Source of the DNA: Sedimentisphaerales bacterium | GTDB taxonomy: Bacteria > Planctomycetota > Phycisphaerae > Sedimentisphaerales > Anaerohalosphaeraceae | Assembly (NCBI GenBank): GCA_016926155.1 | Contig: JAFGPC010000031.1 | Span: 1 to 34,026 of the forward strand | Reading direction: 5' to 3' | Length of the DNA stretch: 34,026 nt | Shown: piece after piece, positions 1-32,837 of the stretch | How the letters are laid out: every line of letters starts with the position of its first letter | How positions within the stretch are numbered: the first letter of the stretch is position 1 | Notes under the pieces: generated by a model | What the model was told of the DNA's origin: nothing | Seen by the model: only the letters and a program-made list of their open reading frames with translations | Databases searched by the model: none | Position numbers and translations under genes: made by a program

Positions 1-99
1 CAGAAATTCGCCGTAGTTCGCCTTCGGAGCAAACCACGTACTCTGCCAGGGCAGCGTGATTCCCGTTCGAAACCCGATTGGCGATGTTTTTTGACCCAT
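1..99 (-). CDS. rpsC: 30S ribosomal protein S3, N-terminal fragment (cut by window edge)
   Basis: Only the first 33 codons are inside the window. The start ATG is at 99-97, and the translation begins [14 protein letters not shown], which matches the conserved S3 opening (MGQK-x-x-PIGFR-x-GI). A GGCAGGAAAT ribosome-binding stretch sits just upstream. S3 lies at the mRNA entry side of the 30S head; its KH domain would be beyond the edge. It follows rplV by 44 bases on the same strand, the canonical S10-operon order. The reading is secure despite the short length, because start motif, Shine-Dalgarno and gene order all agree. Confidence 0.9.
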
Positions 100-143
100 A
101 ATTTCCTGCCTATGATACTCTGTTTAACTGCTTACCTTTTGCC

Positions 144-692
144 CTATTCTTCGGTTACCGATACATGAATATGGCTGGCTTCTTTGCGAATAGGATGGGC
201 ACGACCACGATCTTTGGCGATCCAGCCCTTTGTGCCAATCCGACGACCGGCCCCGTCTACACGAGCTTCAATCACATATAAATTCTCCACGTCCGCCGCC
301 GCTTCATCGGCATTGGCAACCGCACTTTCGAGTACTTTTCGGATAAAGGATGCCGCCCGACGATGTTCAAATTTCAGCAGATCGAGAGCGTCCTGTACAT
401 TTCTCCCGAAAATCAATTCCGTTACGAGACGGGCCTTTCGCGGTGAAGAAGGAGCATACCGATAGGATGCTCGCCACTGGGATATCTCATTGGCTTCCAC
501 ACCCAATGCTCCCGCCAATCGATCCACTTGATCCATTGTTGGAGCCGGTTTAAACAATTTCTTCTGCCAGTTACGAATGGCACGCACGGCATCATCACGA
601 TTAAAACCGCCATGAGCCAAGTGCCCCGCCAGTTCATCAACGCTGACGTTTCTTTCTTTACAAATTCGGTTGAATTTTTCAACACACAACAT
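144..692 (-). CDS. rplV: 50S ribosomal protein L22 with an N-terminal helix-turn-helix-like extension
   Basis: Residues from about 77 to 182 are a full L22 core: YAPSSPRKARLV at the start, the AASFIRKVLESAVANA helix, then the KDRGRAHPIRKEASHI loop and C-terminus that line the exit tunnel. The first ~75 residues are not part of ordinary L22. They read like an XRE-type helix-turn-helix (VSVDELAGHL, then AVRAIRNWQK, then MDQVDRLAGALGV). The ATG at 692 has AGGA seven bases upstream and lies 38 bases after rpsS. An in-frame GTG at codon 66 also has a GGGAG upstream and would give a standard-length L22, so a second start cannot be excluded. The L22 identity is certain; the function of the extension is unknown. 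Confidence 0.95.
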   Translation of the reverse strand: MLCVEKFNRICKERNVSVDELAGHLAHGGFNRDDAVRAIRNWQKKLFKPAPTMDQVDRLAGALGVEANEISQWRASYRYAPSSPRKARLVTELIFGRNVQDALDLLKFEHRRAASFIRKVLESAVANADEAAADVENLYVIEARVDGAGRRIGTKGWIAKDRGRAHPIRKEASHIHVSVTEE

Positions 693-730
693 CGTTCTGT
701 CCTATGTCTATGTAACGGATCGACCGTTTC

Positions 731-4330: not shown

Positions 4331-4334
4331 TCAA
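4306..4334 (-). promoter_or_regulatory. Sigma-70-type promoter candidate for the rpsJ (S10) operon
   Basis: On the minus strand there is a perfect TTGACA (4334-4329), a 17-base spacer, and TAAAAG (4311-4306; four of six matches to TATAAT). The -35 box overlaps the fusA stop codon, whose TGA is part of TTGACA. This would let the S10 group be transcribed independently of the rpo/str genes upstream. Confidence 0.6.
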
Positions 4335-6415
4335 TAGTAGTTTGCTAAAATTTTTTCAGAAATTTGCTCAGGCACTTTTTCATAGCAGAAAGGTTCCATA
4401 GAAAAGCTGCCTCGTCCTGCCGTAGCGCTTCGCACTTCCCCGGCATAACCAAACATTTCCACCAGTGGAACCTGGGCATCAATAACCCGCATGGCGGCAT
4501 GGAGTCGGGTATCGGTTATAATCCCTCTTTTAGCGATAAGTTGCCCCTGAACAGGCCCATAACAGGCCTCCGGAACCACCGCTTCAACCCTCATAATGGG
4601 TTCCAGCAGAATAGGCCTGGCCTCTTTAATCGCCTCGCGAATTGCCAAAGAAGCAGCCTGCTCAAAGGCCATTTCGGAAGAATCGACCGAATGGTAAGAA
4701 CCGTCCAGGAGGGTTACTCGGACACCTACTACAGGATATCCCCAAAGTGCCCCACTGGTCAATCCGGACATGGAGCCATGCTCCACCGCAGGGATATAAT
4801 CCCGGGGAATACTCCCACCAACTAGGGCGTTAGCGAACTCGTTCTCCCTGGCATAATGCCCTTTTTCATCAAATATCGGTTCTACCGACAGAATAACATG
4901 GCCGTACTGCCCCCGCCCACCAGTTTGTTTTATGAATTTCCCTTCCCCCCGTCCGGTCGAGGAAATCGCCTCCTTGTACGCCACTCGGGGTCTTCCTACA
5001 CGGATATCTACTCCCATATCCCGTGTCAACTTATGTTGCAGAATCTCCAGATGCAACTCACCCATCCCGCTGATCAGGGTTTGTCCCGTCTCTTCGTCGT
5101 ATTTACAGCTAAATGTAGGATCTTCTCGGCGCAATTTCTCAAGCGACTCGGCCAGTTTGTTTCGATCCGCACTGGTTCGCGGCTCAATCGACATACTGAT
5201 CACCGTTTCAGGGAAAGTGATGCTCTCCAACTCAACTGGCTTTTTTGTATCGCAAATCGTATCCCCGGTAAGGGTGTCCTTAAGTCCTACGACAGCTACA
5301 ATATCACCGGCCTGGGCCTGATCCCGTAATTCTCGGGAATTTGCATTCATCTCAAAAATGCGAGTAACATTCTCTTTACGATCCCTTGTACTGTTTAGAA
5401 CACGACTGCCCTTACGCAATTGCCCTTGATATAGGCGTAAAAAGTATAAATCCCCGTGTTTGTCTCCGGTGATTTTAAATGCCAGGGCCACCAGGGACTT
5501 ATCCGGATCGCATACAATTTCGATTTCCTGATCCTTTTTCCCTGGTTTGTGCCCTTTGACAGGAGGACGATCCAGAGGAGAAGGCAAAAAATCCGTCACA
5601 GCATCCAACAATCGACGAATCCCCATATTTCGTAAGGCCGCCCCGACGAAAACCGGATTTAACTTGCACGCAAGCGTTCCTTTACGAATCCCACGTTTGA
5701 GTAATTCCGGCTCGATTGGTTCATCATGGACAAAAGCTTCCATGAGCGATTCATCATACTCGGCGGCCGTTTCAATGAGCTGTATACGAGCGTTTTCCGC
5801 CTGTTCAAGTAACTTTGCAGGAATATCCTGTTCGATAAAACTGGCGCCTAACTGTTCCTGGTGAAATAATACTGCCTTCATGGAGATCAGATCCACTAAA
5901 CCGGAAAACCCCCCCTCGGATCCAATCGGCAGTTGCACAACTACCGGATGGGCCAATAATTTATTTCGGATGCTCTGAATTGACATCTCGAAGTCAGCGC
6001 CGGTTTTATCCATTTTATTGATAAAACACAAGCAGGGCAGATCGTATTTTCGGCCCTGCCGCCAGACGGTTTCACTCTGGGCCTGAACTCCTTCACTGGC
6101 ATCAAAGACGGCCACGGCTCCATCCAGAACGCGGAGGGATCGTTCGACTTCGGCGGTAAAATCCACATGTCCGGGGGTGTCGATCAGATTTATTGAAAAA
6201 TCCTTCCATGGACAGCGCGTGGCGGCCGAGGTGATTGTAATACCTCGTTCCTGCTCTTCCTCCATGAAATCCATCACAGCTGTTCCTTCGTGCACTTCCC
6301 CGATCTTGTACGTCTTGCCCGAAAAGAACAATATCCGTTCGGTAACGGTGGTCTTTCCGGCATCAATATGCGCCATAATGCCGATATTTCGAATTGTATT
6401 CAGATCCCGCGTCAT
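4331..6415 (-). CDS. fusA: Translation elongation factor G
   Basis: 694 residues, full length. The GTPase motifs are in order: AHIDAGKT (residues 15-22), the switch [18 protein letters not shown] and NKMD. Domain IV has GGRGQYGH and domain V ends normally. EF-G drives translocation of tRNA and mRNA and works in ribosome recycling. Sequence details near the N-terminus ([21 protein letters not shown]) differ from the most common EF-G I type, and Planctomycetes are known to carry divergent EF-G subfamilies (spdEFG), so this may be one; a tree is needed. It is 125 bases after rpsG, with a terminator-like hairpin in the gap. No clear Shine-Dalgarno precedes the ATG, which is odd for so highly expressed a gene. 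Confidence 0.96.
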
Positions 6416-6488
6416 GATTCGTTATACCGGTTTTTCGGATCGGCTTACATGAAACCGACCTGCAACACACACAATGCAGCGTCGATAT

Positions 6489-6523
6489 AAAAAAACCACG
6501 GATTTTCCGAAGAACCTCCGTGG
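6489..6523 (-). terminator. Rho-independent terminator or attenuator between rpsG and fusA
   Basis: On the minus strand a seven-pair perfect stem CCACGGA (6523-6517) / TCCGTGG (6502-6496) is followed directly by seven T. It begins 17 bases past the rpsG stop codon. This is a textbook intrinsic terminator, yet it sits inside the str gene group, so it probably gives partial termination or ends the beta/str transcript before fusA. Confidence 0.75.
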
Positions 6524-6540
6524 CAACATTTCAATCAAAA

Positions 6541-7017
6541 TTACTTCCAAGCGAAATGCGCAAAAGCCTTGTTGGCTTCAGCCATTCGATGCACATTCTC
6601 GCGTGTAGTCATTGCCGTTCCTTCTTTTTTAAAGGCGTCCATCAGCTCCGATGCCAATCGCGTAGCCATCGGCTTGCCCTTCTTGGCACGAGCAGCGGCC
6701 AAAATCCAGCGAAACGCCAGCGACTGTTGACGTTTAGGCCTTACTTGCATCGGCACCTGATAACTGGCCCCTCCAACACGACGGCTGCGAACCTCCAGCA
6801 TGGGTTTGACATTATCCACAGCCGTTTCAAATACTTCCAAAGGCTCGGTATCTTTGACCCGTTTTTTAATGATGCCCATCGCATCATAGAACACCTTTTG
6901 GGCGGCACTTTTTTTACCTTCCCACATGAGGCAGTTGATAAACTTGGCTACCAGTTTACTGTTATACACCGGATCAGGCTTGAGTTGCTCGGCCGATGCC
7001 GTGAATCGCTTTGCCAT
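6541..7017 (-). CDS. rpsG: 30S ribosomal protein S7
   Basis: 158 residues, typical for bacterial S7. Signatures include [17 protein letters not shown] near the N-terminus, [14 protein letters not shown] (the family hallmark is GGASYQVP) and [13 protein letters not shown]7 nucleates assembly of the 30S head and contacts the E-site tRNA; in E. coli it is also a repressor of the str operon. AAGGGAT lies just before the ATG. It follows rpsL by 36 bases and ends just before the terminator hairpin. Confidence 0.97.
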
Positions 7018-7053
7018 TTCAATATCCCTTTTCAGTCCTCAACTAGACCGATT

Positions 7054-7419
7054 TTACGATTTTTTTGCGCCGTATTTACTGCGACCCTGTTTACGATTGG
7101 CCGTACCGGCCGTATCCAGCACGCCGCGCACAATATGATACCGCACACCGGGAAGGTCGCGAACACGACCGCCGCGAATTATGACGGTACTGTGCTCTTG
7201 GAGGTTATGGTCGATTCCCGGAATATAAGCAGTTACTTCCTTACCGTTGGTCAGACGAACACGGGCGATCTTCCGCAAGGCGGAGTTCGGTTTCTTGGGA
7301 GTCTGCGTTCTCACAATCAGGCACACCCCGCGTTTCTGCGGACACCCGGTAATGTCCGAGATTCTCTTTTTGCTCTTTTTACTACGCCCCTTACGGACCA
7401 ATTGATTGATCGTCGGCAT
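7054..7419 (-). CDS. rpsL: 30S ribosomal protein S12, with Arg at the streptomycin-critical Lys88 position
   Basis: 121 residues from the ATG at 7419 ([12 protein letters not shown]), chosen over an upstream start at 7431 because GGGAG lies five bases before it. The decoding-centre loop [11 protein letters not shown] is intact. The second loop reads [14 protein letters not shown], where E. coli and most bacteria have [14 protein letters not shown]: the residue aligned to Lys88 (E. coli numbering with Met) is Arg (residue 87 here, codon 7161-7159). Lys88Arg is an established streptomycin-resistance substitution elsewhere. S12 controls decoding accuracy in the A site. It opens the str gene group, 77 bases after rpoC. 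Confidence 0.96.
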
Positions 7420-7496
7420 AACTTCTCCCAACGTGTTATATAGTTATCGATTTTTGCCTTTTGGCGCTTTCACTGTTCGAATTCAAATCCGGGCGA

Positions 7497-10400
7497 CTAT
7501 TCCAATCCCAGAGCCGCTTTGACTGCCTTATCTGCTGCCGCTTCGGCCTCCTTGGCCTCACGCAGTTCTTCGAGCTGTTTGGGCACGGGCGGCTCGGCCA
7601 GATGTTTGACCCGTACTTCCAGATGAGGCCGGAAACCGGTCCCTGCCGGAATCAGATGTCCCAAGATTACATTTTCCTTCAAACCAAGTAAATTATCCAC
7701 TCTAGCCCCAAGAGACGCTTCCGTCAACACTTTTGTTGTCTCCTGGAAACTGGCCGCGGATATAAAGCTGTCCGACTGCAGGGAGGCCTTTGTTATACCT
7801 AGAAGGAGCGTGTTAGCTGTAGCCGGACGTGGTTTTTTACCTTTGGCAGGGGTTCCGGACAGCATTTCCACTTTCTCATTGGCCGCCTCCAACTCCTCCT
7901 TCGTCATCAACTGGCCGATTTCCAGACCCGTATCCCCCGCATCGGTAATCCGAATCTGCTTGGATAATTCGTCGTTACTTCGACGGAACTCGAGACGATC
8001 CACAACCTCACCGGGCAGATAAGAACTGTCTCCAATCGACTCAATTTCAACCTTTCGCATCATCTGCGAAAGGATGATTTCGATATGCTTGTCGCTGATA
8101 TTAACACTTTGAGCCCGATAGACGTTTTGAATCTCACGCAGGAGATATCGCTGCAGAGCTTCCTCTCCTTTAATCCGAAGGATATCGTGCGGCACCAACG
8201 GACCATCTGTCAGAGCGTCACCCGCTTCAACCCGGTCTCTTGTATGAAAGTTCAGATGACGGTCACGCGGAACATGGTGCTCTTTTTCCATGCCGCTTTC
8301 ACTGCGGACGATAATCGTCATCTTGCCACGACGTTTGTCGCTTTTCAACTCAATAATACCGCTGATTTCGGCCATGGCGGCCGGCTCTTTGGGCTTACGG
8401 GCTTCAAATATTTCCGTCACTCGTGGAAGTCCACCAGTAATATCCTGTGTTCCACCGGAACCACGAGGCAGGCGGGCCAGCAATTGCCCGGCCGCCACAT
8501 TCTGACCTTCATCGACTTCGATTCGAGCCTTGGCGGGCAGGTAGTGTACATCCAGAATTTTACCATCAGCATCCTCAATGATCACCTGCGGATGCTTGTC
8601 CCCCTTATGTTCAATAACGACAGGGTGGCCTTTTTGTCCCTTGCGTTCTTCCTCGATACGCATGGTCTCACCTTCGATGACATCGACCAGGCGAACCAGA
8701 CCGTCGACTTCGGCCAAAATCGGGATTCGGTGTGGATCCCATCCGAATAACACTGTGCCTTTCTTGACCTCTTGGCCGTCCTCTACCGTAATCACGCCAC
8801 CATAAGGCACTTTGAACCGTTCCAGTTCCCGGCCTTTAGCGTCGACGATTGTGATCTCTCCGCTTCGTTTCAGCGCTACAATATGGGTACCGCCTTCATC
8901 GCTCTTGACTTTAACCGCATTCAGATCCTCAAACCGGATAATACCGTCGCGCGGCGCAACTTGCTGCGTTTCAAGAACATTGATTGCCGCAATACCGCCC
9001 GTATGGAAGGTACGCATCGTCAATTGCGTCCCCGGTTCACCGATGGATTGAGCGGCAATAATCCCGACAGCCATTCCTTCTTCGACAACTCGACCGGTAC
9101 TTAAGTCCCAACCATAACACTTGGCACAGATACCCATCTGGCTTTCGCAGGTCAACGAACTGCGGACTCGGATTGCATCCAGACCGAGAGCCTCGATTTT
9201 GTCGGCGGCTTCGGACGTAATGACTTCGTTTTCACGAACGATCATCTCATCGGTAATCGGGTTGCGGATATTGTCCCGAGCGGTCCTTCCAATAATCAAA
9301 CTCCGCAACGGCACATCAACAGTCTCCCCTTTATACACGGTGCTTTTGGTGATTCCCTGTAAAGTACCACAGTCCTGTTCGGTAATCATCACATTCTGTG
9401 CCACATCGGCCAGCTTTCGTGTCAGATATCCGGAGTCGGCCGTCTTCAGCGCGGTATCGGCCAGTCCTTTTCGGGCACCGTGCGTAGAACTGAAGTATTC
9501 CAACACATTCAAGCCTTCCCGGAAGTTGGATTTGATCGGGGTTTCAATGATCTCGCCGCTGGGCTTAGCCATCAAAGCCCGCATACCCGCAAGCTGCTGG
9601 ATCTGATCAATACTTCCACGGGCGCCGGAATGCCGCATTACCCAGATCGGATTCAAATAGGGCTTCCCGTCTCTGGTGTCGTTTTCCATTGCATCCATCA
9701 TGGCCTCTGTTACAGCCACGCGGGCATGGGTCCAGGCATCAATCACCTGATTATATCGCTCGCCATCCGTCAACACACCATCGTGAAAATTCTTCATGAT
9801 GCGGTCGATACGCTTTTGTGTCACATCGATGATTGCCTGTTTCTGGGGTGGAATCTGAAGGTCTATCAATCCGAAACTGATCCCGGCCAGTGTGGCCCGT
9901 TTGAATCCGAGTTCCTTGACGTTATCCAACAGATCAATGGTACTGGCACTTCCGCAAATTTCATGGCAGTCCTGAATGACCTTACCAAGTTGCTTCTTAT
10001 CCATGACAACATTATAGAACGGCATGGCATCCGGAAGAATATCATTGAACAGACAACGTCCCGGCGTCGTTTCAATCAGCCCACCCTCTTGTCCCCCACG
10101 GATCCCTCGTACCTTTTTGGTCTTCGGCAGGCGGACCTTCACACGGGCATGCATATGCACCTTACCCATCTCGCAGGCAGTGATCGCTTCCGTCGGGTCG
10201 CGGAAGAGCATCCCTTCGCCCTTCTGTTGATCTCGCATGGCTGTGATATAATAGTTGCCCAGAACAATATCCTGGCTAGGTCCCAGCATGGGGGCGCCGC
10301 TCTGCGGCGAGAAGATATTGTTGGTAGACATAATCAGGGTGTGGGCCTCGACCTGGGCCTCAATGCTCAACGGCAGATGAACCGCCATCTGGTCTCCGTC

Positions 10401-11768
10401 GAAGTCCGCATTAAAGCCCTGGCAAACCAGCGGATGCAACATAATGGCGTTGCCTTCCACCAAAACCGGCTCAAACGCCTGGATGCCCATCCGGTGCAAT
10501 GTGGGGGCGCGGTTTAACAATACCGGGTGCTGGTGAATGACTTCCTCAAGGATATCCCAAACATGCTCCTCGCGTCGCTCCAACATGCGTTTGGCACTCT
10601 TGATAGTGTCGGCCAGCCCACGATCCTTGAGCTTGCGGATAATAAAAGGCTGATATAATTCAAGAGCAATCTTCTTGGGCAGACCGCATTGATACAGTTT
10701 CAGATGCGGACCCACTACAATCACCGATCGAGCGGAATAATCGACTCGCTTGCCGAGCAGATTTTCGCGGAATCGCCCCTGTTTGCCCTTGATCATGTCT
10801 GTCAGGCTCTTGAGAGGCCGATTATTGCTGCCGAGAACCGGACGACGGCAGCGACCGTTATCCAGCAGGGAATCGACGGCCTGCTGCAGCATCCGTTTCT
10901 CGTTGCGGATAATTACTTCCGGCGCATTCAAATCGATCAGCTTCTTGAGCCGGTTGTTCCGGTTGATAATCCGGCGATACAGATCATTCAAATCGCTGGT
11001 GGCAAAGTTTCCGCTCTCCAGCATGACCAGCGGACGCAGGTCCGGCGGGATCACCGGAACGACTTCCATGATCATCCATTCGGCCTTGTTTTCGCTGGAG
11101 CGGATGCTGTTGACGATCTTGAGCCGTTTGGTAAGATCCTTGATCTTTTGTTTGCTGTTGGTTTTTGTAATATCGGCTTTTAATTCACCGCTCAACTCGA
11201 ACAGATCCAGTTTGGCCAGCAGTTCCTTGACGGCTTCGGCACCCATGGTCGCACGGAAACAGTTGCCATATTTGCCAACTGCCTCGCGATATTCGTCTTC
11301 GGTTAAAAGCTGTTTTTGTTTGAGGGGACTTTGCCCGGGATCGGTTACGACATAATCCTGGAAATAGATAATTTTTTCCATATCGCCGGTTTTCATTCCC
11401 AACAAGGTACTGAGTCGACTGGGCATCGCCTTGAAGAACCAGATATGCACAACGGGAGCGGCCAGATTGATATGGCCCATCCGCTTACGGCGAACCCGGC
11501 TATGGGTGACCTTGACCCCACACCGGTCGCAGATAATTCCCTTGAATTTAGTCCCCTTATATTTTCCGCAGGCACATTCCCAGTCCCGCTCGGGACCAAA
11601 AATCCGCTCACAGAACAAGCCGTCTTTCTCCGGCCTGTAGGTACGATAGTTGATCGTTTCCGGTTTACGGACCTCGCCGAAGGACCAGCTTCGAATATCA
11701 TTCGGACTGGCCAGCGTGATCTTCACCGAACCGTAGTCATTGATCCGATCATAAATCGATTCAACCAT
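7497..11768 (-). CDS. rpoC: DNA-directed RNA polymerase subunit beta'
   Basis: 1,423 residues, the length of a complete single-chain beta'. Visible landmarks are the N-terminal zinc site with CACGKYKG and CDRCGV (residues ~64-85), the catalytic magnesium motif NADFDGDQM (near residue 453), the trigger-loop region with the signature [16 protein letters not shown], and the second zinc cluster with CGT, CES and CAKCYG. It forms the clamp and active centre of RNA polymerase with RpoB. The ATG has GGAG eleven bases upstream. It is 90 bases after rpoB and cotranscribed with it. The C-terminus ends in an Ala/Glu-rich tail ([18 protein letters not shown]) of no known function. Confidence 0.98.
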
Positions 11769-11858
11769 CTTACTTTTTACTCCGCTCTGTTCTGAACTAT
11801 TGTATCGACAATCCTGTCGTCATTCTCATCCCGTAGAGACGCCCTAAACGGCAGATCG

Positions 11859-14800
11859 TTATAACGGGGCCCCGATCCGTTTCTTTTCCAACTGAATATT
11901 CAGCCCCAGACCGCGAATCTCGTTACACAACACATCGAACGATACCGGCGTTCCCGCTTCGAGGGTATTGTCCCCTTTGACCATCGACTCATAAATCTTG
12001 GTGCGGCCTTCGATGTCGTCACTCTTGACCGTCAACAGTTCCTGCAGGGTATACGCGGCGCCATACGCCTCCAGGGCCCATACTTCCATTTCGCCGAATC
12101 GCTGGCCTCCGGTCCGCGCCTTGCCGCCCAGGGGCTGCTGGGTGATCAAGCTGTACGGACCGGTTGCCCTGGCATGAATCTTGTCATCCACAAGATGGTG
12201 CAGCTTGAGCATATACATATATCCAATGGTTGCTTTCTGCTCAAACGGCTCCCCCGTGCGGCCATCATAGACCGTTGTCTTGAGCGTAGGAGGCACGGTG
12301 ACAAACAATTCATCCACCAGGGGCGCCTGCTTGTCTTTCTCGATCTCTTTGGCGCGGTTGAGAACATGCTGATTGGCTTCCTCGGTTACTGCTTTGATGT
12401 CTTCTTCAGTGGCCCCGTCAAATACCGGCGTGACACCGGTAAAGCCAAGCACTTTGGCGGCCCAGCCCAGATGCGTTTCCAGGATCTGCCCCACATTCAT
12501 TCGGCTCGGGACACCAAGCGGATTCAGACAGACATCTACCGGCGTTCCATCTTCCAGGAACGGCATATCTTCTTCCGGCATGATTTTGGCAATGACGCCC
12601 TTGTTCCCATGGCGTCCGGCCATTTTGTCTCCCACGGAGAGGGTTCGCTTGGTCGCCACATAGACCTTAACCATTTCCAACACACCGCTTGGAAGTTCAT
12701 CCCCATGCTTCATGCGATCCAGGGTGCCTTGTTTTTCTTCCTGGATCTCTTTGATTTTCGGCCACCATTTCTGGATGACAGGTTCGGCGTCGGAACGCAC
12801 TTTGGCGGGCTTAATCCACGCAGGATCAAAGTTCTCGATTTGTTCATAAATGACATCATTGTCGTCGCTGATGCCCACCTTCTGGCGCGTGGACGGGTCC
12901 ACTACCTCAATGCCCAGTTTTTCTGTGAGCTCGGCCATCATCTGACGAAACAGCATACATTCCTTGGCGGTCATTTCGGCCCGTATCCGGGCGATCTGCT
13001 CTTTCATTTTCTTTTTCTGCTCATCACTGCCGGCGCCACGACGGGTGAATCGTTTGGTTTTTATGACCACACCCTCATATCCGCTTGGAATTTCCAGCGA
13101 ATCATTCTTCACATCCTCACCGGCCCGACCAAAAATCGCATGTAACAGCTTTTCCTCGGGAGTTAATTCGGTCTTGCTTTTAGGCGAGACCTTGCCCACC
13201 AGAATATCTCCCGGGGCGACACGAGTTCCTTCGCAAACAATCCCGTGCTCATCCAGATTGCGAAGCGCTTTTTCACTGACATTGGGGATGTCTCGTGTAA
13301 ACTCTTCCCGACCCAGTTTTGTCTCGCGCACTTCCACACTGAATTCGTCGATGTGAATGCTGGTAAATGTGTCTTCTTTGACAAGACGCTCACTGATCAG
13401 AATGGCGTCCTCAAAGTTGTAGCCGTCAAATGGAACAAAGGCGACAAGAACATTCTTACCCAATGCCAAAGATCCGTTGCTCGTTGCGCCGCCATCAGCG
13501 ATAATCTGTCCTTTTTTTACCTTTTCGCCAAGTTGCACAATCGGTCGTTGATTCAAACAGGTACGTTCATTCAAACCTTCGTATTTGAGCAATTTGTATT
13601 CATCGGTATTGTCAAGGATGATCCGATTGCCATCTACTGCTGTCACCACGCCGCTGCTTGCAGCCCTGATAACCATGCTGCAATTGGCCGCGACCGGATC
13701 TTCCATTCCCGTACTTACTAATGGTCGCTCCGTCACCAGCAGCGGGACGGATTGACGCTGCATGTTTGATCCCATCAGGGCCCGGTTGGCATCGTCATGT
13801 TCGAGGAACGGAATCAAGGAAGCGCTGACTCCGACGATCTGCTTGGGGGATATATCCACATAATTCACCTCACCGCTGTCAACCTGAGTCAGATCCCCTT
13901 CCTTTCGGGCCAGAACCAATCCTTTTCGTAATTCTTTGCTTTTCGGCTCGACCATACTGGGCGGAGCAAAGATGGCCTCCAATTCCTGGTCGGCTCGAAG
14001 GTATTCGACTTCTCCGGTCAGCTTACCTTTTTTAACCTTCTGATACGGAGTAATCAGGAAGCCGTATTCATCCACGCGAGAAAAAATTCCCAAGGAAACG
14101 ATCAGGCCAATGTTTGTGCCTTCCGGCGTCTCAATCGGACATACCCGTCCGTAATGGCTGATATGCACATCGCGCACCTCAAAACCGGCCCTTTTGCGGT
14201 TTAAGCCACCCGGCCCCAACGCACTGAGCCGTCTTTCATGGGTAAGCTGACTCAGGGCATTGGTCTGATCAACCACCTGACTCAGCTCACCGCGACCGAA
14301 GAAGTAATCGATACTCGATGAAACGCTCTTGGAATTGACCAGGTCGGCAATTCGAGCCACCTCATCCTGGCCCTTCATACTCATTCGTTCCTGCACCGTT
14401 CTTCGCAGTTTCAACAATCCCTTACGAATCTCTCCGGCGGCCAGTTCGTCAATCGTTCGCAGACGACGGTTGCCAAGGTGGTCGATATCGTCCACAACGC
14501 CCTCGTTGGCACGCAACTTGAGAATATAATGCATGGTATTGATAAAATCTTCAGGACGAAGGGACATTTCATCTTCAGGCACATCCTGATTGAACTTGCG
14601 ATTCAGACGAAACCGCCCTACTTTACCCAGGCGATACCGGTTGGTATCGTAAAATTTCTCCATAAATAAGGTGCGGGCCTTTTCGATCTGGGCCGGATTA
14701 CCGGGACGCAAACGGGCATAAATCTTGAGCAGGGCCTCTTCATGGCTTTCACAGTCGTCTTCGGATATGGTGTTCAAAACCAGCGGATCGACGGCCTTGC

Positions 14801-15611
14801 GCACCACTTCCACCGAATCCAGACTGCTGCCCTGAATAGCTGTCAGCGCATCGCCCAACTGCACTCCTGCTTCCACCAGAATCTCGCCGGTTTTGGTATC
14901 GACAATCGGTCCTACCGCCCACATTGTCTGCGTCAGTTTATTGACCTTGACCTTCTCGGTCTTATAAAACATTCGGATCAGGTCTTCGGTCTTGCCATAT
15001 TTTTCACTCATGGCCCGCAGGAACACCGTTGCCGGTATGCGGCTGGATTGATCGATACGGATGACCAGTACATCCTTTTTGGAAACGGACATCTCAATCC
15101 AGCTTCCTCGCTCGGGAATAATCCGGCTGCCGTGCAAAATCCGGTCTCCGTCCCGACTGTCAATCACGAAATCCACACCCGGACTGCGATGGAGCTGATT
15201 GACGATCACACGCTCGGCTCCATTGATGATAAACTCCCCACCCCCGATCATTACGGGCATTTCACCCAGATAGATCGCTTGTTCAGGGATATCCTCGGCA
15301 TCTTTTCGCTTCAGACGGCAGTGAATCTTCAACGGATAACCGTACGTCAAGCGCAGCTCACGACACTGCTGGATTGTATACCGGGGATTTTCCATCTCAT
15401 ACCCCAGATACTCAAGCTCCATCGTCTTATCATAACTGATAATCGGAAAGACCTCGCGAAGCAGTGCTTCAAGCCCATCGTCCTTTCGTTTATCCGGAGC
15501 TACATCAAGTTGCAGAAATCGAGCATAGCCCTTTAACTGCACCTCTTGTAGATCAGGCACCGATAAGGCATCGCCGATCTTACCAAAATTTCGAATGGGT
15601 CGCGCCTTCAT
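11859..15611 (-). CDS. rpoB: DNA-directed RNA polymerase subunit beta
   Basis: 1,250 residues, complete. Landmarks are the lobe region with the rifampicin cluster (residues ~434-465), [11 protein letters not shown], the catalytic-side motif [12 protein letters not shown], and the C-terminal clamp with ESMVKG. In the rifampicin cluster the contact residues aligned to E. coli Q513, D516, H526, R529, S531 and L533 are kept, but F514 and M515 are both Val, P520 is Ala, E523 is Gln, and P567 is Thr ([11 protein letters not shown]). Whether this lowers rifampicin binding cannot be told from sequence. GGAGAG lies seven bases before the ATG. It follows rplL by 85 bases. Confidence 0.98.
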
Positions 15612-15696
15612 TCAATCGCTCTCCGCTGTCCCGTGTTTCAGGTTTGGTCCAGAAACGAGATCGTATCGTATGTCTCGCACGTTATCTTGGAAAAGA

Positions 15697-16110
15697 CTAC
15701 GCAATCTCGACCGTCGCACCGGCGGCTTCCAGCTTGGCCTTGGCATCCTCTGCCTCGTCCTTGCTTACCCCTTCCTTGACCGGCTTAGGTACGCCGTCTA
15801 CCAGTTCTTTGGCTTCTTTAAGGCCCAGACCTGTCAAGCCGCGTACTTCCTTGATTACCTGGATCTTCTTGTCGCCAAAGCTCTTTAATATCACATCAAA
15901 ACTGGTTTTTTCTTCGGCGGCCGCCCCCTCAGCTCCACCGACTCCGCCCATCGGCCCGGCCATCATCACCGCACCACCTGCGGCCGGCTCAATCCCGTGA
16001 ACGTCTTTAAGGTAATCAGCCAGCTCTTTGGCTTGCATCAGAGTTAAGGCCACAATCTTGTCACCGAGTTGCTTTATTTCGGTACTGAATTCTTTGGTTT
16101 CTTCCGACAT
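15697..16110 (-). CDS. rplL: 50S ribosomal protein L7/L12
   Basis: 137 residues, slightly longer than E. coli (121). It has the three expected parts: an N-terminal dimerisation helix region (about 1-40), a flexible hinge rich in Ala, Gly and Met (about 41-67; [14 protein letters not shown]), and the globular factor-binding domain with [30 protein letters not shown] (GLGLKEAK is the hallmark) and a C-terminal GATVEI. The stalk protein recruits EF-Tu, EF-G and IF2 and is present in several copies per ribosome. GGAG lies nine bases before the ATG. A strong RNA structure separates it from rplJ. Confidence 0.97.
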
Positions 16111-16134
16111 CTGCTACATCTCCCGATTTTCTTT

Positions 16135-16196
16135 TGTCCGCGGGTGCCAAAACTCCGCTGTCTCGTTTAACCCCTCGGGGGGACAGCCGCCGGACA
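16135..16196 (-). promoter_or_regulatory. Nested RNA stem structure between rplJ and rplL
   Basis: An outer stem pairs plus-strand TGTCCG (16135-16140) with CGGACA (16191-16196), extended by a few more pairs with one bulge. An inner stem pairs GCTGTC (16157-16162) with GACAGC (16182-16187), and a third small stem is CCCC (16171-16174) with GGGG (16177-16180). The structure is followed by ~25 bases to the rplL start and no T run, so it is not a terminator. It could stabilise or expose the rplL message, which must be translated more than rplJ. Confidence 0.55.
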
Positions 16197-16222
16197 AGTG
16201 CAATTCATTATTTGAAAGCCGT

Positions 16223-16753
16223 CTAGGCGGCCTCTTTCTCCATTTTCTCAATATGACTCTTAAGACATCCGGCAATACGGCTTCCCGGACCGACAATCGC
16301 ACCGGCAACATTGGAGCCTGGTGTAAGGGCAATCTGAACCAATTGCCCCTGCAATTCCACTCTCGTGGGCATTTTCGCCAGTTCTTCGGCGCCTTTCTGA
16401 GGCACTATCTGCCCTTCAACATAGGCCCCTTTTACTTCTACAACAGGAAGCTTTTTGGCCCAACCAACCAATTCCTTGGCAACATCGACAATGCTATCTC
16501 CTCCATACGCAACAGTGCATGGACCTGTGCTGAACAAGCCTGCGGCAGACCCATGGCCCATGGACTCGAGGGCCTTTCGCATCATCGAATTTTTAACGAC
16601 GGTCAATCGGATGCCCTTGGATTTCAAAACGCCTCGCATCTCATTGTTATCGATCCCGCCGATCCCTTTAATGCTTACTACCAGAAAATCCTCCATTCCG
16701 GCAAAACGCCGTTCCAGATCTTTCTGTAGGAATCCTTTAATTACCCGACTCAT
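16223..16753 (-). CDS. rplJ: 50S ribosomal protein L10
   Basis: 176 residues. It has the L10 layout: an N-terminal globular rRNA-binding domain (IDNNEMRGVLKSKGIRLTVVKNSMMRKAL region, of which LTVVKNSMMRKAL is typical) and a C-terminal helix that anchors L7/L12 dimers. L10 forms the base of the ribosomal stalk. AAAGG precedes the ATG by a few bases. The gap from rplA is only 61 bases, too short for the long L10-binding leader seen in many bacteria, so if autoregulation exists it works elsewhere. It is followed by the structured spacer and rplL. Confidence 0.96.
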   Translation of the reverse strand: MSRVIKGFLQKDLERRFAGMEDFLVVSIKGIGGIDNNEMRGVLKSKGIRLTVVKNSMMRKALESMGHGSAAGLFSTGPCTVAYGGDSIVDVAKELVGWAKKLPVVEVKGAYVEGQIVPQKGAEELAKMPTRVELQGQLVQIALTPGSNVAGAIVGPGSRIAGCLKSHIEKMEKEAA

Positions 16754-16814
16754 ATGTTACCTTTCAGGTTGTTTCTATTCCTGCAAATGTTCATTCCATC
16801 CGATGCAAGACGGA

Positions 16815-17492
16815 TTACTCTACGTTGACAATTACGCTGGGACTCATGGTCGCACTGAGACAAACCTTCTTGATATAAGTCCCTTTCATGGCGGACGGCT
16901 TCATTTTCTTAATATGCCCAACAAAGGCACGGATATTGTCTGCAAGTCTTTCTTCACTGAAACTAAGCTTGCCGACTATCGCGTGCACATTTCCACCTGC
17001 ATCATTGCGGAATTCCACCTTGCCTGCGGCAAATTCCTGAACCGCCTGGATCACATCCATAGTAACCGTCCCGTTCTTGGGAGAAGGCATCTTGCCCTGC
17101 GGACCGAGAATCCGCCCTAGTTTTCCAACTTTCCCCATCACTTTCGGGGAGGCGATTGCCACATCAAAATCAGCCCAGCCACCCTGCACTTTTTCAATTA
17201 AATCGTCACAACCCGCCTCCAGGGCGCCGACGCCTTTAACGTTCTCTGCCTCGCTATCTTCACAAAATGCGATAACCCTTCGATTTTTCCCAATTCCGTG
17301 CGGAAGACTGATGGCCCCACGCACCATCTGATCGGCCTGTTTGGGGTCGATTCCAAGATGCATTACACATTCGACCGTTTGATCGAACTTCGTGGACCCG
17401 AACGATTTGACCTTTTTGACAGCCTCGGAGATTGGAAACACCTCTTTGGTCGCTTTCTGTGCTTCCTGGTTATAGCGCTTACTTCTTCTCAT
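16815..17492 (-). CDS. rplA: 50S ribosomal protein L1
   Basis: 225 residues, typical. The L1 signatures are the N-terminal AVKKVKSFGSTKFDQTVE, the LPHGIGK motif, the LGRILGPQGKMPSPKNGTV stretch (hallmark ILGPQGKMPSPK) and a C-terminal return to the first domain ending PSVIVNVE. L1 forms the mobile stalk at the E site and represses the rplKA message in E. coli. A perfect GGAGG lies five bases before the ATG. The 151-base gap from rplK is wider than the others in this set. Confidence 0.97.
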   Translation of the reverse strand: MRRSKRYNQEAQKATKEVFPISEAVKKVKSFGSTKFDQTVECVMHLGIDPKQADQMVRGAISLPHGIGKNRRVIAFCEDSEAENVKGVGALEAGCDDLIEKVQGGWADFDVAIASPKVMGKVGKLGRILGPQGKMPSPKNGTVTMDVIQAVQEFAAGKVEFRNDAGGNVHAIVGKLSFSEERLADNIRAFVGHIKKMKPSAMKGTYIKKVCLSATMSPSVIVNVE

Positions 17493-17643
17493 GAATACCT
17501 CCGCGAAACTCTTTTACGTATTCGCTCCCACTATTCTCGCCGTGGTCAGCAATTCCAATTCGAACTCAAGTACAATCCACACCTCCTGCCCACCATCCCT
17601 ATTTCCATTGTTTATGACAAAACAACGGTTCGGCTTTTCCGGA

Positions 17644-18072
17644 TCACCCTTCTTCCACTTCAATGCCCATGCTGCGAGCGGTCCCTTCAATAATCCGATC
17701 AGCTTGATCCAGATCGAACGCATTTAAATCTTCAAACTTGGTCTCGGAGATCTTGCGAATCTGACTTTTAGTCACTTTGCCAACTTTGTTTTTATTCGGT
17801 TCTCCGCTCCCTTTGGCCAGACCGGCCTCTTGTTTTAAAAGAACTGCCGCCGGCGGGCTTTTGACAATAAAATCAAAACTCCTGTCCGCATAGACGGTGA
17901 TCTCGACAGGCACTGTCATACCGTTAAGGTCTTTGGTTCGCTCATTAAACTGGGACACGAACTGGCCGATATTTACTCCATGCTGCCCCAGAGCCGGACC
18001 GATCGGCGGGGCCGGAGTAGCCTGTCCACCCGAGGCCTGAAGTTTGATCTTACCTGTTATTTCTTTGGCCAT
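17644..18072 (-). CDS. rplK: 50S ribosomal protein L11
   Basis: 142 residues, the family length. It has the N-terminal [23 protein letters not shown] motif ([11 protein letters not shown] is the hallmark) and the C-terminal rRNA-binding domain with KTPP-type [14 protein letters not shown] and [14 protein letters not shown]11 is part of the GTPase-associated centre and the site of thiostrepton binding and RelA activation. It is 27 bases after nusG. The Shine-Dalgarno is weak (GGAAAAC). Confidence 0.97.
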
Positions 18073-18099
18073 ATTTGTTTTCCGATCTTCTCTTCGTTC

Positions 18100-18645
18100 T
18101 TACACCTTCTCAATTTGCCAGTATTCAATATCCAGCGGGGTACTGCGACCGAAAATCGTCACAATCACCCGTACAATCCCGCGTTCTTCATCGATCGAAT
18201 CGACGCTTCCTTCAAAGTTCTCAAACGCCCCCTCCCGGATCTTGACAACATCGCCTTTGTCAAACTCCACTTTGATATTGGGCGTATCTTCCGGTTTTTC
18301 CACTTCCTTGAGCATTTTGGCTACATCAGTGTCGCGCATCGGCGTAGGAACGCCCTCGGTGCCGATGAAATCACCGACACCCATAGTTTCCTTGATAATA
18401 TAGAACGCCTCATCCGGAATCCGCCCGTCGTCTTTGGGCTCCAATTCCATAAATACATATCCCGGATACAATTTGCGTTTGTGTACTCTTTGCTTACCTC
18501 CACGAATCCGTTTCACCGATTCGGTCGGGACCATAATCCGCCCTACGCTTTGCACTCCCTCGACGTCCATTTTATGCGCGAGGGAATCGCGTACCTGCTC
18601 TTCCTTATTGGACGCTACTCGCAATACATACCATTGCATCGCCAT
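18100..18645 (-). CDS. nusG: Transcription termination/antitermination factor NusG
   Basis: 181 residues. The N-terminal NGN domain begins MQWYVLRVASNKEEQV and contains KLYPGYVFMEL; the C-terminal KOW domain is KGDVVKIREGAFENFEGSV with GRSTPLDIEYWQIEKV at the end. NusG binds RNA polymerase across the clamp and couples it to Rho or to S10 on the ribosome. The first ATG is kept; an in-frame ATG two codons later (MQWYV) is equally plausible, as neither has a strong Shine-Dalgarno. It lies 30 bases after secE, in the classic secE-nusG-rplK order. Confidence 0.96.
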   Translation of the reverse strand: MAMQWYVLRVASNKEEQVRDSLAHKMDVEGVQSVGRIMVPTESVKRIRGGKQRVHKRKLYPGYVFMELEPKDDGRIPDEAFYIIKETMGVGDFIGTEGVPTPMRDTDVAKMLKEVEKPEDTPNIKVEFDKGDVVKIREGAFENFEGSVDSIDEERGIVRVIVTIFGRSTPLDIEYWQIEKV

Positions 18646-18675
18646 CTCGCTGGATTCCCCGTCTGCTAAAAAATG

Positions 18676-19092
18676 TTACCTGGGTGAAACATCACTCAAA
18701 TTATAAATGTTCAGCGCACTGACATCGGTCAAAAACCATGCAAAAACCGTATCCGCCACCGTTAACATGATCCCAAAACAGATTACAACAATAATTACAA
18801 TCGTCGTGGAAGAAACGATTTCCTTGCGGCTGGACCAGCTTACCTTTTTAATCTCTCCCTCCGAAGCAATCAAAAAATCAGCTACGCTGGGACGATTGCT
18901 CAGCCAGGAAATAGCGAGTGCCGCAACGGCCGCCAATCCCGCCGGTAAAAAGTTCTGAAGCCACGGATTATTGAATGCGGCTAATTCCTCATGCAGCCGG
19001 TAACATCCTGCTGCGACAATCGCAAACAGAATAATCGCACTCCACAACCGCGTGTTGTGTCCCTGTCCCCGTTTGTATATCTTGAATTCCAT
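18676..19092 (-). CDS. secE: Preprotein translocase subunit SecE (three predicted membrane helices)
   Basis: 138 residues. The conserved SecE core is at the C-terminal side: the amphipathic EIKKVSWSSRKEIVSSTT segment (around residues 80-97) followed by a hydrophobic helix (VIIVVICFGIMLTVADTVF). Two more hydrophobic segments lie upstream (about 16-30 and 50-65), so this is the longer, three-helix form rather than the single-helix form of many bacteria. SecE clamps the SecY channel. It lies 67 bases after tRNA-Trp and 30 bases before nusG. The Shine-Dalgarno is weak. Position and core motif make the call secure. Confidence 0.93.
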   Translation of the reverse strand: MEFKIYKRGQGHNTRLWSAIILFAIVAAGCYRLHEELAAFNNPWLQNFLPAGLAAVAALAISWLSNRPSVADFLIASEGEIKKVSWSSRKEIVSSTTIVIIVVICFGIMLTVADTVFAWFLTDVSALNIYNLSDVSPR

Positions 19093-19159
19093 TCCGTCAC
19101 CGTCAGCCCTGTGTCCGCCAGTCTAGTTCCGGCAAAACCAATACCCGCCAGTCCGCTAC

Positions 19160-19232
19160 CAGGTCAGGAGGGGCTCGAACCCCCAACCTGCGGTTTTGGA
19201 GACCGCTGCTCTACCAATTGAGCTACTGACCT
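19160..19232 (-). tRNA. tRNA-Trp (anticodon CCA)
   Basis: Read 5' to 3' from 19232: acceptor AGGTCAG pairs with CTGACCT over seven pairs, discriminator G at 19160. The D arm contains AGCTCAATTGGTAGAGC, the anticodon stem GCGGT/ACCGC encloses loop CTCCAAA (anticodon CCA), and the T arm has GGTTCGAGCC. No 3' CCA is encoded. Its first two bases are also the last two of the rpmG stop codon. A tRNA-Trp between tuf and secE is a common bacterial arrangement. Confidence 0.96.
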
Positions 19233-19398
19233 ATTTGCGCCGAATCTTGTGGACCGTACGTTTTCGTTCCACTTTGCAGAATTTTTTCAATTCCAGTTTC
19301 GGAGTGCCGCCCTGCACGTTCACTTCCGTGCGATAGTTACGGCTGCCACAGTCTTTACACTCCAGCCAGACATATTCCCGTTTTTGTGCTTTGGCCAT
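19231..19398 (-). CDS. rpmG: 50S ribosomal protein L33, one zinc cysteine replaced
   Basis: 55 residues, too short for many ORF callers but clear: MAKAQKREYVWLECKDC, then SRNYRTE and LELKKFCKVERKRTVHK. This is the L33 pattern. The first cysteine pair (CKDC) is intact; in the second pair the usual CPRC is CKVE, so one of four zinc ligands is Glu. The stop codon TAG overlaps the first two bases of tRNA-Trp, so RNase P cleavage at the tRNA 5' end would cut the message at the stop codon. GAGAG lies close before the ATG. It follows the tuf terminator hairpin. Confidence 0.92.
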   Translation of the reverse strand: MAKAQKREYVWLECKDCGSRNYRTEVNVQGGTPKLELKKFCKVERKRTVHKIRRK

Positions 19399-19457
19399 TT
19401 CGCTCTCACATCAAAAACAAAATCCCCTGTCGCATCGGTCCGTGCGAAGAGGTATAA

Positions 19458-19481
19458 AAGGCGCCGCATCTGCGGCGCCTT
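19458..19481 (-). terminator. Rho-independent terminator after tuf
   Basis: A near-ideal hairpin, GGCGCCGC (19479-19472) / GCGGCGCC (19467-19460) with a four-base loop AGAT, flanked by AA and followed by TTTTAT on the minus strand. It is 17 bases past the tuf stop codon. Since rpmG has no obvious promoter of its own, readthrough probably feeds the downstream genes while most transcripts end here, matching the very high demand for EF-Tu. Confidence 0.85.
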
Positions 19482-19498
19482 CTTCATTCGGTTCCAAT

Positions 19499-20713
19499 TT
19501 ACGCAAGAATCTTCGTGACAACACCGGCGCCGACGGTCCTGCCGCCTTCGCGAATGGCGAAACGAAGCCCTTCTTCCATGGCGATCTTGGAGATGATTTC
19601 CACTTCCATCTCAATGTTGTCGCCGGGCATGCACATCTCAACAGCCTTGCCTTCACGGCTCTGGATTTTGTTCACTGCCCCCGTGACATCGGTTGTACGG
19701 AAGAAGAATTGCGGACGATACCCCGCAAAGAATGGAGTATGACGTCCACCTTCCTCCTTGGTCAGCACGTATACCTCAGCAATAAATTTGGTATGAGGCG
19801 TAATCGTTCCCGGAGCCGAAATGACCTGACCGCGTTCCAAGTCCTTCTTTTCGACGCCTCGCAGAAGGATTCCGACGTTATCACCGGCTTGCCCCTGATC
19901 CAGAGTCTTGTTGAACATCTCGACGCCGGTTACGGTGGTCTTTCGAATTTCATCGGAAAGCCCGACCACATCCACCTGATCGCCCACCTTTACGACACCA
20001 CGTTCAACACGACCTGTCCCGACGGTGCCTCGCCCCTTGATGCTGAACACGTCTTCGATCGGCATCAGGAACGGCTGGTCGACAGCACGTTCGGGGATGG
20101 GAACATAATCGTCCACTGCCTGCATCAATTCATCGATACATGCACAAGCGGCGTCGTCCTTGCCTTCCGATTCCATTGCCGCCAAGGCGGATCCCTTGAT
20201 GATCGGGATCTCATCACCCGGAAACTCGTACTTATCGAGCAGTTCCCGAAGCTCCATTTCTACCAGTTCGAGCAGTTCCGGATCGTCCACCTGATCGACT
20301 TTGTTTAAAAAAACCACGATCTTGGGCACGTTCACCTGACGGGCTAACAGGATATGCTCCCGGGTTTGGGGCATCGGGCCATCGCTGGCGGCTACTACCA
20401 GAATCGCACCGTCCATCTGGGCGGCTCCGGTAATCATGTTCTTCACATAGTCGGCGTGACCCGGACAGTCCACGTGAGCATAATGCCGATTGTTCGTCTC
20501 ATACTCAACGTGTGCGGTGTTAATCGTAATGCCGCGCTCCCGTTCTTCCGGGGCATTGTCGATTTCCTCAAACTTTTTCACTTTGCCGGAGCCGGCCTTC
20601 TGTGCCAGACGCATGGTAATCGCCGCTGTGAGGGTCGTTTTACCATGGTCAATGTGTCCAATCGTCCCAATGTTTACGTGGGGTTTGGTCCGCTGAAATA
20701 CATCCTTTGCCAT
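19499..20713 (-). CDS. tuf: Translation elongation factor Tu
   Basis: 404 residues. All GTPase motifs are present: GHIDHGKT (residues 19-26), [22 protein letters not shown] and SAL. Domains 2 and 3 follow with the expected VGTGRVERG and GGRHTPFF motifs. EF-Tu delivers aminoacyl-tRNA to the ribosome. AGGAGG lies nine bases before the ATG. Its place at the head of the secE/rpo set, directly behind tRNA-Thr, rather than after fusA, is notable: the usual tuf slot between fusA and rpsJ (3951-4330) is empty. A short insertion-like stretch rich in Asp/Ala/Cys ([11 protein letters not shown]) lies near residues 190-200. Confidence 0.98.
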
Positions 20714-20849
20714 TTGTCAGTAACCTCCTGGCTCTTATGCCTTCAATTTCCTGCCAAGCCTTATTCTTGCTTTCTATTGTTTAAGGTTAAAGCTCACGTT
20801 TCATGACCCGATCCACCACAGGCCGGACCAATCCTTATTATGATCACCT

Positions 20850-20922
<73 letters not shown>

Positions 20923-31460: not shown

Positions 31461-32510
31461 TCACAATCCAAAACCGGGAATCTCCGCATCACACTGCGGA
31501 CAGCGGCCGTCGTGGATTACATTTTTCTGAATCGTATAGCCCATCCGTTCGACAAGCAGCGTCCCGCATGAAGGACAGAATGTGCTCTCGGCCCGCGTTC
31601 CCGGTAGGTTACCGATATAAATGAACTGGAGTCCCTCTTCCTTACCGATATCGTATGCCCGTTCCAGCGTTTTCACAGGCGTCGGCGCCGTATCTTCCAT
31701 ATGGTACTGCGGATAAAATCGACTCACATGCCATGGCACACCCTGCCCGGCTTCGGTAGCGATAAAACGGGCAATCTCGCGTAGCTCCTCGTCTGAATCA
31801 TTCTGCCCCGGCACAATCAGCGTCGTCAGTTCCATCCAGATATCCGTCTTTTTCGCAATGTACCGAATCGTATCCAATACCGGCCCAAGCCGGGCGTGAC
31901 ATAGACTTTTATAATATTCCTCCCGAAACGACTTGAGATCGATATTGATCCCATCCAGCCACGGTCGTGCAAACTCGATCGCCTCGGTCGACATATACCC
32001 ATTACTCACAAACACATTGGCCAACCCTTCCTTGCGGGCCAGCCGGGCACATTCGGAAGCCAGTTCCATAAAAATCGTCGGTTCGGTATACGTATACGCG
32101 ATGCTCTTGCACTGCCCGTGAATCGCCGAAATCACTATATCCTTCGGGCGGATCGACCGGCCGTACAGGTCGCCGTCGGCCTCGGCCATCTGGCTGATCT
32201 GCCAGTTCTGACAGAAATCGCAGCGGAAATTACACCCCGGCGCCGCGATGGAAAAGCTCTTGCTGCCCGGCTGGAAATGGAACAGTGGCTTTTTCTCAAT
32301 CGGATCGACATTGGCCGCACACACCCGATGATAATTGAGAGATTGCAGCCGTCCTTTCACATTCCTTCTCACGCCGCAGCGCCCCAGCCGCCCTTTCGCG
32401 ATCACACAACGGAAGTTGCATAGAAAACACTGCACCTTGCCCCCTTCGCTGGGCCCCCACATAACCGCCTCGGCCGTCCGATTCTTCTCGATATCCATCG
32501 GTTCTTCCAT
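31461..32510 (-). CDS. amrS: AmmeMemoRadiSam system radical SAM enzyme
   Basis: 349 residues. The radical SAM cluster is CNFRCDFC (Cys93, Cys97, Cys100). An N-terminal cysteine set (CFLCNFRC, then GRCGVR; Cys28-Cys45) and a C-terminal zinc-ribbon pair (CPSCG and CPQC) flank it; the core also has TYTEPTIF and NIDLKSF. This is the AmrS partner of the three-part AmmeMemoRadiSam system with AMMECR1-like and Memo-like proteins. Neither partner is in the window. The reaction is not firmly known. The start at 32510 is taken with GGGG upstream; an ATG four codons later is possible. It is convergent with the IscU-like gene. Confidence 0.9.
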   Translation of the reverse strand: MEEPMDIEKNRTAEAVMWGPSEGGKVQCFLCNFRCVIAKGRLGRCGVRRNVKGRLQSLNYHRVCAANVDPIEKKPLFHFQPGSKSFSIAAPGCNFRCDFCQNWQISQMAEADGDLYGRSIRPKDIVISAIHGQCKSIAYTYTEPTIFMELASECARLARKEGLANVFVSNGYMSTEAIEFARPWLDGINIDLKSFREEYYKSLCHARLGPVLDTIRYIAKKTDIWMELTTLIVPGQNDSDEELREIARFIATEAGQGVPWHVSRFYPQYHMEDTAPTPVKTLERAYDIGKEEGLQFIYIGNLPGTRAESTFCPSCGTLLVERMGYTIQKNVIHDGRCPQCDAEIPGFGL

Positions 32511-32837
32511 GCCCGAATTCCCCTTCTCTACAGGCCGCCTCAGCCCGTCCTGCCGATTTCAATATAACAGAAAAGAATTTCCTTTTGAAATTCCAAATGG
32601 AAAAACGAAAATCGAAAATCCTGTAGGGCCTTTTGTCGCCATTATGATGTGTATTGTCAATACCTTATCTTGGACAAGAGTGATTTGAGCGAAGGAACCA
32701 ACCACGATTGTGCAATCCTTGTCAAACTCAACATTTGCTTGCCTCAAAGATAAAAACCTCGTATGATTCCGGGACTTTTTAGGTTGCCAAGCGATATTTG
32801 CGCCGTATTCAGATGATAAACAATGGGAGACGATTGG
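32511..32837. other. Divergent intergenic region between amrS and asnA
   Basis: 327 bases with no supported gene; a 62-codon minus-strand reading frame (32559-32747) has no recognisable features and no Shine-Dalgarno. It contains the asnA promoter candidate near its right end and the word CCTGTAGGGCC (32620-32630), which recurs just after asnA. Confidence 0.5.
32739..32767 (+). promoter_or_regulatory. Promoter candidate for asnA
   Basis: TTGCCT (32739-32744; four of six to TTGACA), a 17-base spacer, and TATGAT (32762-32767; five of six). Transcription would start near 32774, leaving a short leader of about 65 bases before the chosen asnA start. Confidence 0.5.

Follow-up and report, generated by a model that had tools for sequence, protein, structure and literature searches.

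A predicted Cro/C1-type helix-turn-helix domain fused to ribosomal protein uL22 in Sedimentisphaerales and a second planctomycete clade

Around the tunnel exit, ribosomal proteins of bacteria are typically compact, and such extensions as they have are mostly tails. L22 enlarged by a terminal extension is known from chloroplast uL22c and from NF008917, a fusion of L22 with an unknown domain; unlike the extension described here, neither is reported as a helix-turn-helix (HTH) domain. HTH domains of the Cro/C1 (XRE) type are found in P22 c2, 434 Cro, and SinR; repressors of this family are normally dimeric, and a glutamine in helix 2 is typical of them. Action of a cro/C1 HTH on the ribosome has been described for EDF1/Mbf1 and archaeal MBF1 (PMC7486125), which the extension resembles by shared fold. 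However, these are separate factors that act at the small subunit in eukaryotes and archaea. The L22 extension does not belong to the Mbf1/EDF1 group, which is marked by an MBF1 domain alongside the HTH and by small-subunit binding: Pfam shows no MBF1 domain, and the L22 HTH belongs to a protein of the large subunit. We found no paper on an L22-HTH fusion in open-access PMC; the fusion, which involves a universal ribosomal protein and is clade-defining, is apparently undescribed in the open literature searched.

The window (the whole 34,026-nucleotide stretch analyzed) encodes rplV on the minus strand at 144–692, an open reading frame of 182 amino acids that begins with ATG and is uninterrupted by stops; the frame is single and continuous in nearly all members of the order Sedimentisphaerales. 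Ribosomal_L22 (PF00237) matches residues 75–179 at 4.2e-27 (94.8 bits against a cut-off of 28; profile positions 1–103 of 104), rplV_bact (TIGR01044) matches at 2.4e-24 (85.6 bits against a cut-off of 73.65), and the nearest solved chains are bacterial uL22. The product is therefore a uL22 by curated profile scores over the entire core. It is also one by position: the S10 operon on the minus strand reads S10, L3, L4, L23, L2, S19, and L22, followed by the start of S3 at the contig end (readable at 1–100, minus strand), so that the gene lies between S19 and S3 as in other bacteria. As elsewhere, L22 is single copy; one gene per genome was found among the order genomes examined, and no HTH-less paralog was seen.

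Two features set this uL22 apart from its bacterial homologs. The first is a 72-residue N-terminal domain (477–692, minus strand). By alignment, an E. coli-type L22 start would fall approximately two residues before W73, and residues 1–72 are thus additional to the core (residues 73–182 plus stop; 144–476, minus strand); no linker separates the domain from the first L22 strand. The second is a variant of the tunnel hairpin found in this order (residues 144–170; 144–260, minus strand), which reads VDGAGRRIGTKGWIAKDRGRAHPI against the usual VDEGPxxKRFQPKDRGRAHPI, with VDGAGRRIGTKGW replacing VDEGPxxKRF; it is approximately three residues longer than usual, with a different tip. The usual hairpin is kept in two further families of the class that carry the N-terminal domain (f10 and f25, below), so the variant does not track the fusion.

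The earlier note, made from the window's letters, had proposed an XRE-type domain ahead of the L22 core, and family matches, structure prediction, and structural comparison all bear this out. The window's own extension, searched as 76 residues, has no significant Pfam match (best 0.14); the assignment to HTH_3-like families comes through its relatives. Seventeen close relatives match Cro/C1-type families (HTH_19, best 9e-8; HTH_3, 2e-4; HTH_31, 6e-4; HTH_26, 2e-3), and f10 members, from outside the order, match HTH_31 at 3e-5. An alignment of 18 members shows the pattern LA, then A..A..NWxKGLYKPxPTxEDVERLAxALGVE, closing with I..W. AlphaFold, which the note had suggested as a check, predicts an HTH fold of five helices for the isolated domain (3–13, 18–25, 32–43, 53–63, and 67–75; mean pLDDT 82), with the HTH at helices 2–3; the full-length model has the same first four helices, then a strand at 73–79. 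Foldseek E-values were weak (0.3 upward), as is usual for domains so short, with probabilities up to 0.99 and matches almost all to HTH regulators or HTH-containing proteins. VIA-align gave Z scores of 7.3–8.6 over approximately 60–68 residues to cyanase, P22 c2, 434 Cro, DdrO, and SinR, and also to ribosome-bound Mbf1/EDF1 (7o81, Z 7.5; 9f9s, Z 7.3); among the top rows, almost every entry is a Cro/C1-type HTH or a cyanase HTH-like domain. With P22 c2, 434 Cro, and SinR in particular, the predicted domain shares the five-helix fold, the signatures W-x-x-G-x-x-x-P and LAxALGV, and Z scores of 7.3–8.4 over approximately 64 residues; it differs in being fused to a ribosomal protein and in its helix 3, predicted to span 12 residues (32–43) after a longer loop. 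These data identify residues 1–72 as a Cro/C1 (XRE) HTH at the level of sequence families and predicted structure.

The fusion itself is real and clade-wide by profile searches, and the survey across Planctomycetota that the note had called for found it in Sedimentisphaerales and in families f10 and f25. Matches within the order come from 139 of 148 genomes; almost all span the full length, in open frames of mostly 182–200 amino acids. One of the relatives (L033) is an Anaerohalosphaeraceae MAG (Sedimentisphaerales, Phycisphaerae). Among 397 genomes of the class, the extension profile finds 91 order genomes, 44 of f10, and 3 of f25, and no other sampled family carries the domain; in the loci inspected from those families, L22 begins with Met right at the core. 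One weak match excepted, the frames containing the class matches are as long as L22 or a little longer, and all matches inspected directly are L22. The 91 carriers come from 95 sampled order genomes; the other four lack the front of L22 in the assembly (no L22 match at all in G037, G052, and G090; a C-terminal fragment only in G073). An apparent loss of the HTH in G144 was rejected, as the contig ends within the gene. Every order member with an assembled L22 front has the domain, and the checked exceptions are missing or contig-cut genes. In 294 genomes sampled across the phylum, L22 matches to the profile are confined to the order and f10; five weak matches lie in other places. The full-length profile matches listed agree with this distribution, and a scan of genome contigs returned three Phycisphaerae loci. 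The L22 survey as a whole covers samples from Planctomycetota.

A FastTree phylogeny of ten other ribosomal proteins places the carriers in two clades, the order on the one hand and f10 plus f25 on the other; the latter belong to a group that also contains f20, f22, and f24, all three without the domain. The tree of the L22 core gives the same picture, indicating vertical inheritance of L22 itself. When a profile is built from order HTHs alone, it finds those of f10 and f25 at 3e-7 to 5e-19 per genome, whereas no HTH outside L22 in 32 genomes scores better than E 0.059; the carrier HTHs are therefore specifically related, and an origin from a paralogous HTH was rejected on the same 32 genomes. 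The HTH tree separates the order from f10/f25 with support 0.80 and shows no sign of nesting, and on these grounds we rejected the idea that the order passed the domain to those families recently. Support for the backbone of the tree is weak. The domain may descend from one ancient fusion lost approximately six times, or from an ancient second acquisition with loss in f24.

Conservation was assessed over 57 order sequences and 15 from f10/f25. N41 and W42 are invariant in all 72, with A22, G29, A35, A38, P49, L59, and A60 nearly so; position 40 is Arg or Lys in 55 of 57 order members, and W73, at the fusion point, is invariant in the order and Phe in f10/f25. In the XRE signature W-x-x-G-x-x-x-P, the fixed residues correspond to W42, G45 (Lys in the window), and P49. 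In three close pairs, dN/dS is 0.04–0.38 for the HTH and 0–0.08 for the core: the HTH is under purifying selection, weaker than that on the core. Helix-3 positions 31–34, 36, and 37 are variable; entropy reaches 2.5–2.7 bits at 36, 37, and the helix-2 position 18. By our own mapping onto this alignment, we take the base-reading residues of the 434 repressor to correspond to about 36, 37, and 41; hydrophobic or small residues are frequent at 36 and 37, and Asn occupies 41 in every sequence. Unlike the DNA-binding repressors, then, these proteins vary at most of the base-reading positions and do not keep the helix-2 Gln, whereas N41 and R/K40 are conserved. This pattern fits a conserved contact patch other than one for classical operator reading.

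These observations bear on the idea that HTH-L22, when free and in excess over rRNA, represses its own operon by binding its DNA or leader RNA. P22 c2, 434 Cro, and SinR have this same repressor fold, and feedback by free ribosomal proteins on their own expression is well established, acting through RNA; DNA binding and autoregulation by HTH-L22 are possible. However, operator binding is made less likely by the variation at base-reading positions and by the loss of the family's helix-2 Gln, no dimer partner or other evidence of dimerization was seen, and 12 order members share no common palindrome 5′ of S10, a weak test. A hairpin near −50 upstream of S10 occurs in a few genomes and is not conserved. 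Overall, we regard autogenous regulation as unlikely.

The earlier note had also pointed to an internal GTG preceded by GGGAG, from which both long and short L22 forms might be made. Both elements are present in the window, with the GTG (498–500, minus strand) at codon 65, counting the ATG as 1, and not at codon 66. In this account, the internal start, or proteolysis, would supply short L22 to ribosomes while the HTH form or the freed HTH works elsewhere. The comparative data speak against it: GTG stands at codon 65 in just 12 of 57 order sequences, where it encodes the conserved Val of LGV, and 27 of 57 members have no in-frame ATG or GTG anywhere in codons 55–76. The long ATG, by contrast, is invariant; in the window an SD-like AGGA lies 5′ of it (700–703, minus strand; cataggacagaacgATG), and an SD-like core occurs within 18 bases upstream in 39 of the 50 sequences shown. 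A conserved dual start is therefore unlikely, the proposal of two forms is not supported, and we consider a division of labor between two products improbable. As a practical matter, the L22 start codon in these genomes should not be trimmed in annotation.

We favor a different reading, in which the gene yields one long uL22 whose HTH stays on the 50S subunit as a permanent accessory domain, likely binding rRNA or a neighboring protein and not serving as a DNA regulator (probability approximately 0.55). L22 is located at the tunnel exit site (PMC5071890), and the HTH form is the sole L22 found in the genomes, which makes a fixed 50S domain the most economical interpretation. A domain so consistently kept is probably a permanent part of the ribosomes of these bacteria, with a function that is probably structural or ribosome-associated. 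Once incorporated, the HTH would be expected, from its linker-free passage into the first core strand, to stay beside the globular part of L22 on the solvent side, close to where the nascent-chain tunnel has its rim. The conserved patch R/K40-N41-W42-K44 and the following KP loop could then contact rRNA or a neighboring protein, and such contact would stabilize the subunit or shape the exit surface. The cro/C1 HTH of eukaryotic EDF1/Mbf1, which binds between 18S rRNA helices 16 and 33 (h16/h33; PMC7486125), is a direct precedent for ribosomal use of this fold.

The charge of the domain tempers this picture. Mean net charge is +2.9 in the order and +4.4 in f10/f25, and at only about +3 strong rRNA binding is not obvious. 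This modest charge would suit an HTH that recruits a protein factor to the tunnel exit (a chaperone, SRP, an enzyme, or the translocon) in place of contacting rRNA, and such factors dock on exit-site proteins, of which L22 is one (PMC5071890). However, no candidate partner emerged, and trigger factor occurs in genomes with the fusion as well as in those lacking it; we hold such a docking role to be as doubtful as autogenous regulation. A working nucleic-acid-binding module at the tunnel exit, which would let every ribosome of these bacteria bind DNA or mRNA next to the nascent chain, seems to us about as improbable as the two-product scheme; if true, it would link translation with the nucleoid or with the fate of mRNA.

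Changes elsewhere in the ribosome that might accompany a 50S accessory domain were also sought. Along the E. coli map, no insertion or deletion in 23S rRNA tracks the fusion among 7 carriers and 6 non-carriers, and lengths of L23, L24, L29, L16, and S19 overlap between the two groups. Replacement of the neighbor bL32 was rejected, since all 110 class genomes searched have it, as was replacement of trigger factor, which occurs in 108 of the 110; carriers are included in both counts. This absence of companion change counts against the favored 50S accessory reading. Separately, the 23S gene of one complete order genome (G003, L134) carries an insertion of approximately 290 bases near E. coli position 1861–1875, for a total of approximately 3170 nt, which is absent from the other genomes compared.

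The wider interest of the fusion is that a whole transcription-factor-type domain appears to be an obligatory part of uL22 across one order and a second clade. It offers a clear, testable case in bacteria of an HTH domain whose place has shifted from DNA regulation to the ribosome, parallel to Mbf1/EDF1.

Upstream of S10, window positions 4331–20922 hold fusA (4331–6415), rpoC (7497–11768), and rpoB (11859–15611), along with EF-Tu, NusG, L1, L10, and two tRNAs. The genes from EF-Tu to fusA share the strand of S10, forming one long transcription and translation cluster that continues into the S10 operon. Between fusA and rpoC, and opposite to both, lies an ORF of 307 amino acids (6520–7443, plus strand) with no NCBIfam match, which is possibly spurious. 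Toward the far end of the window are genes for an AmmeMemoRadiSam-system radical SAM enzyme (31461–32510, minus strand) and the aspartate–ammonia ligase AsnA (32823–33878, plus strand).
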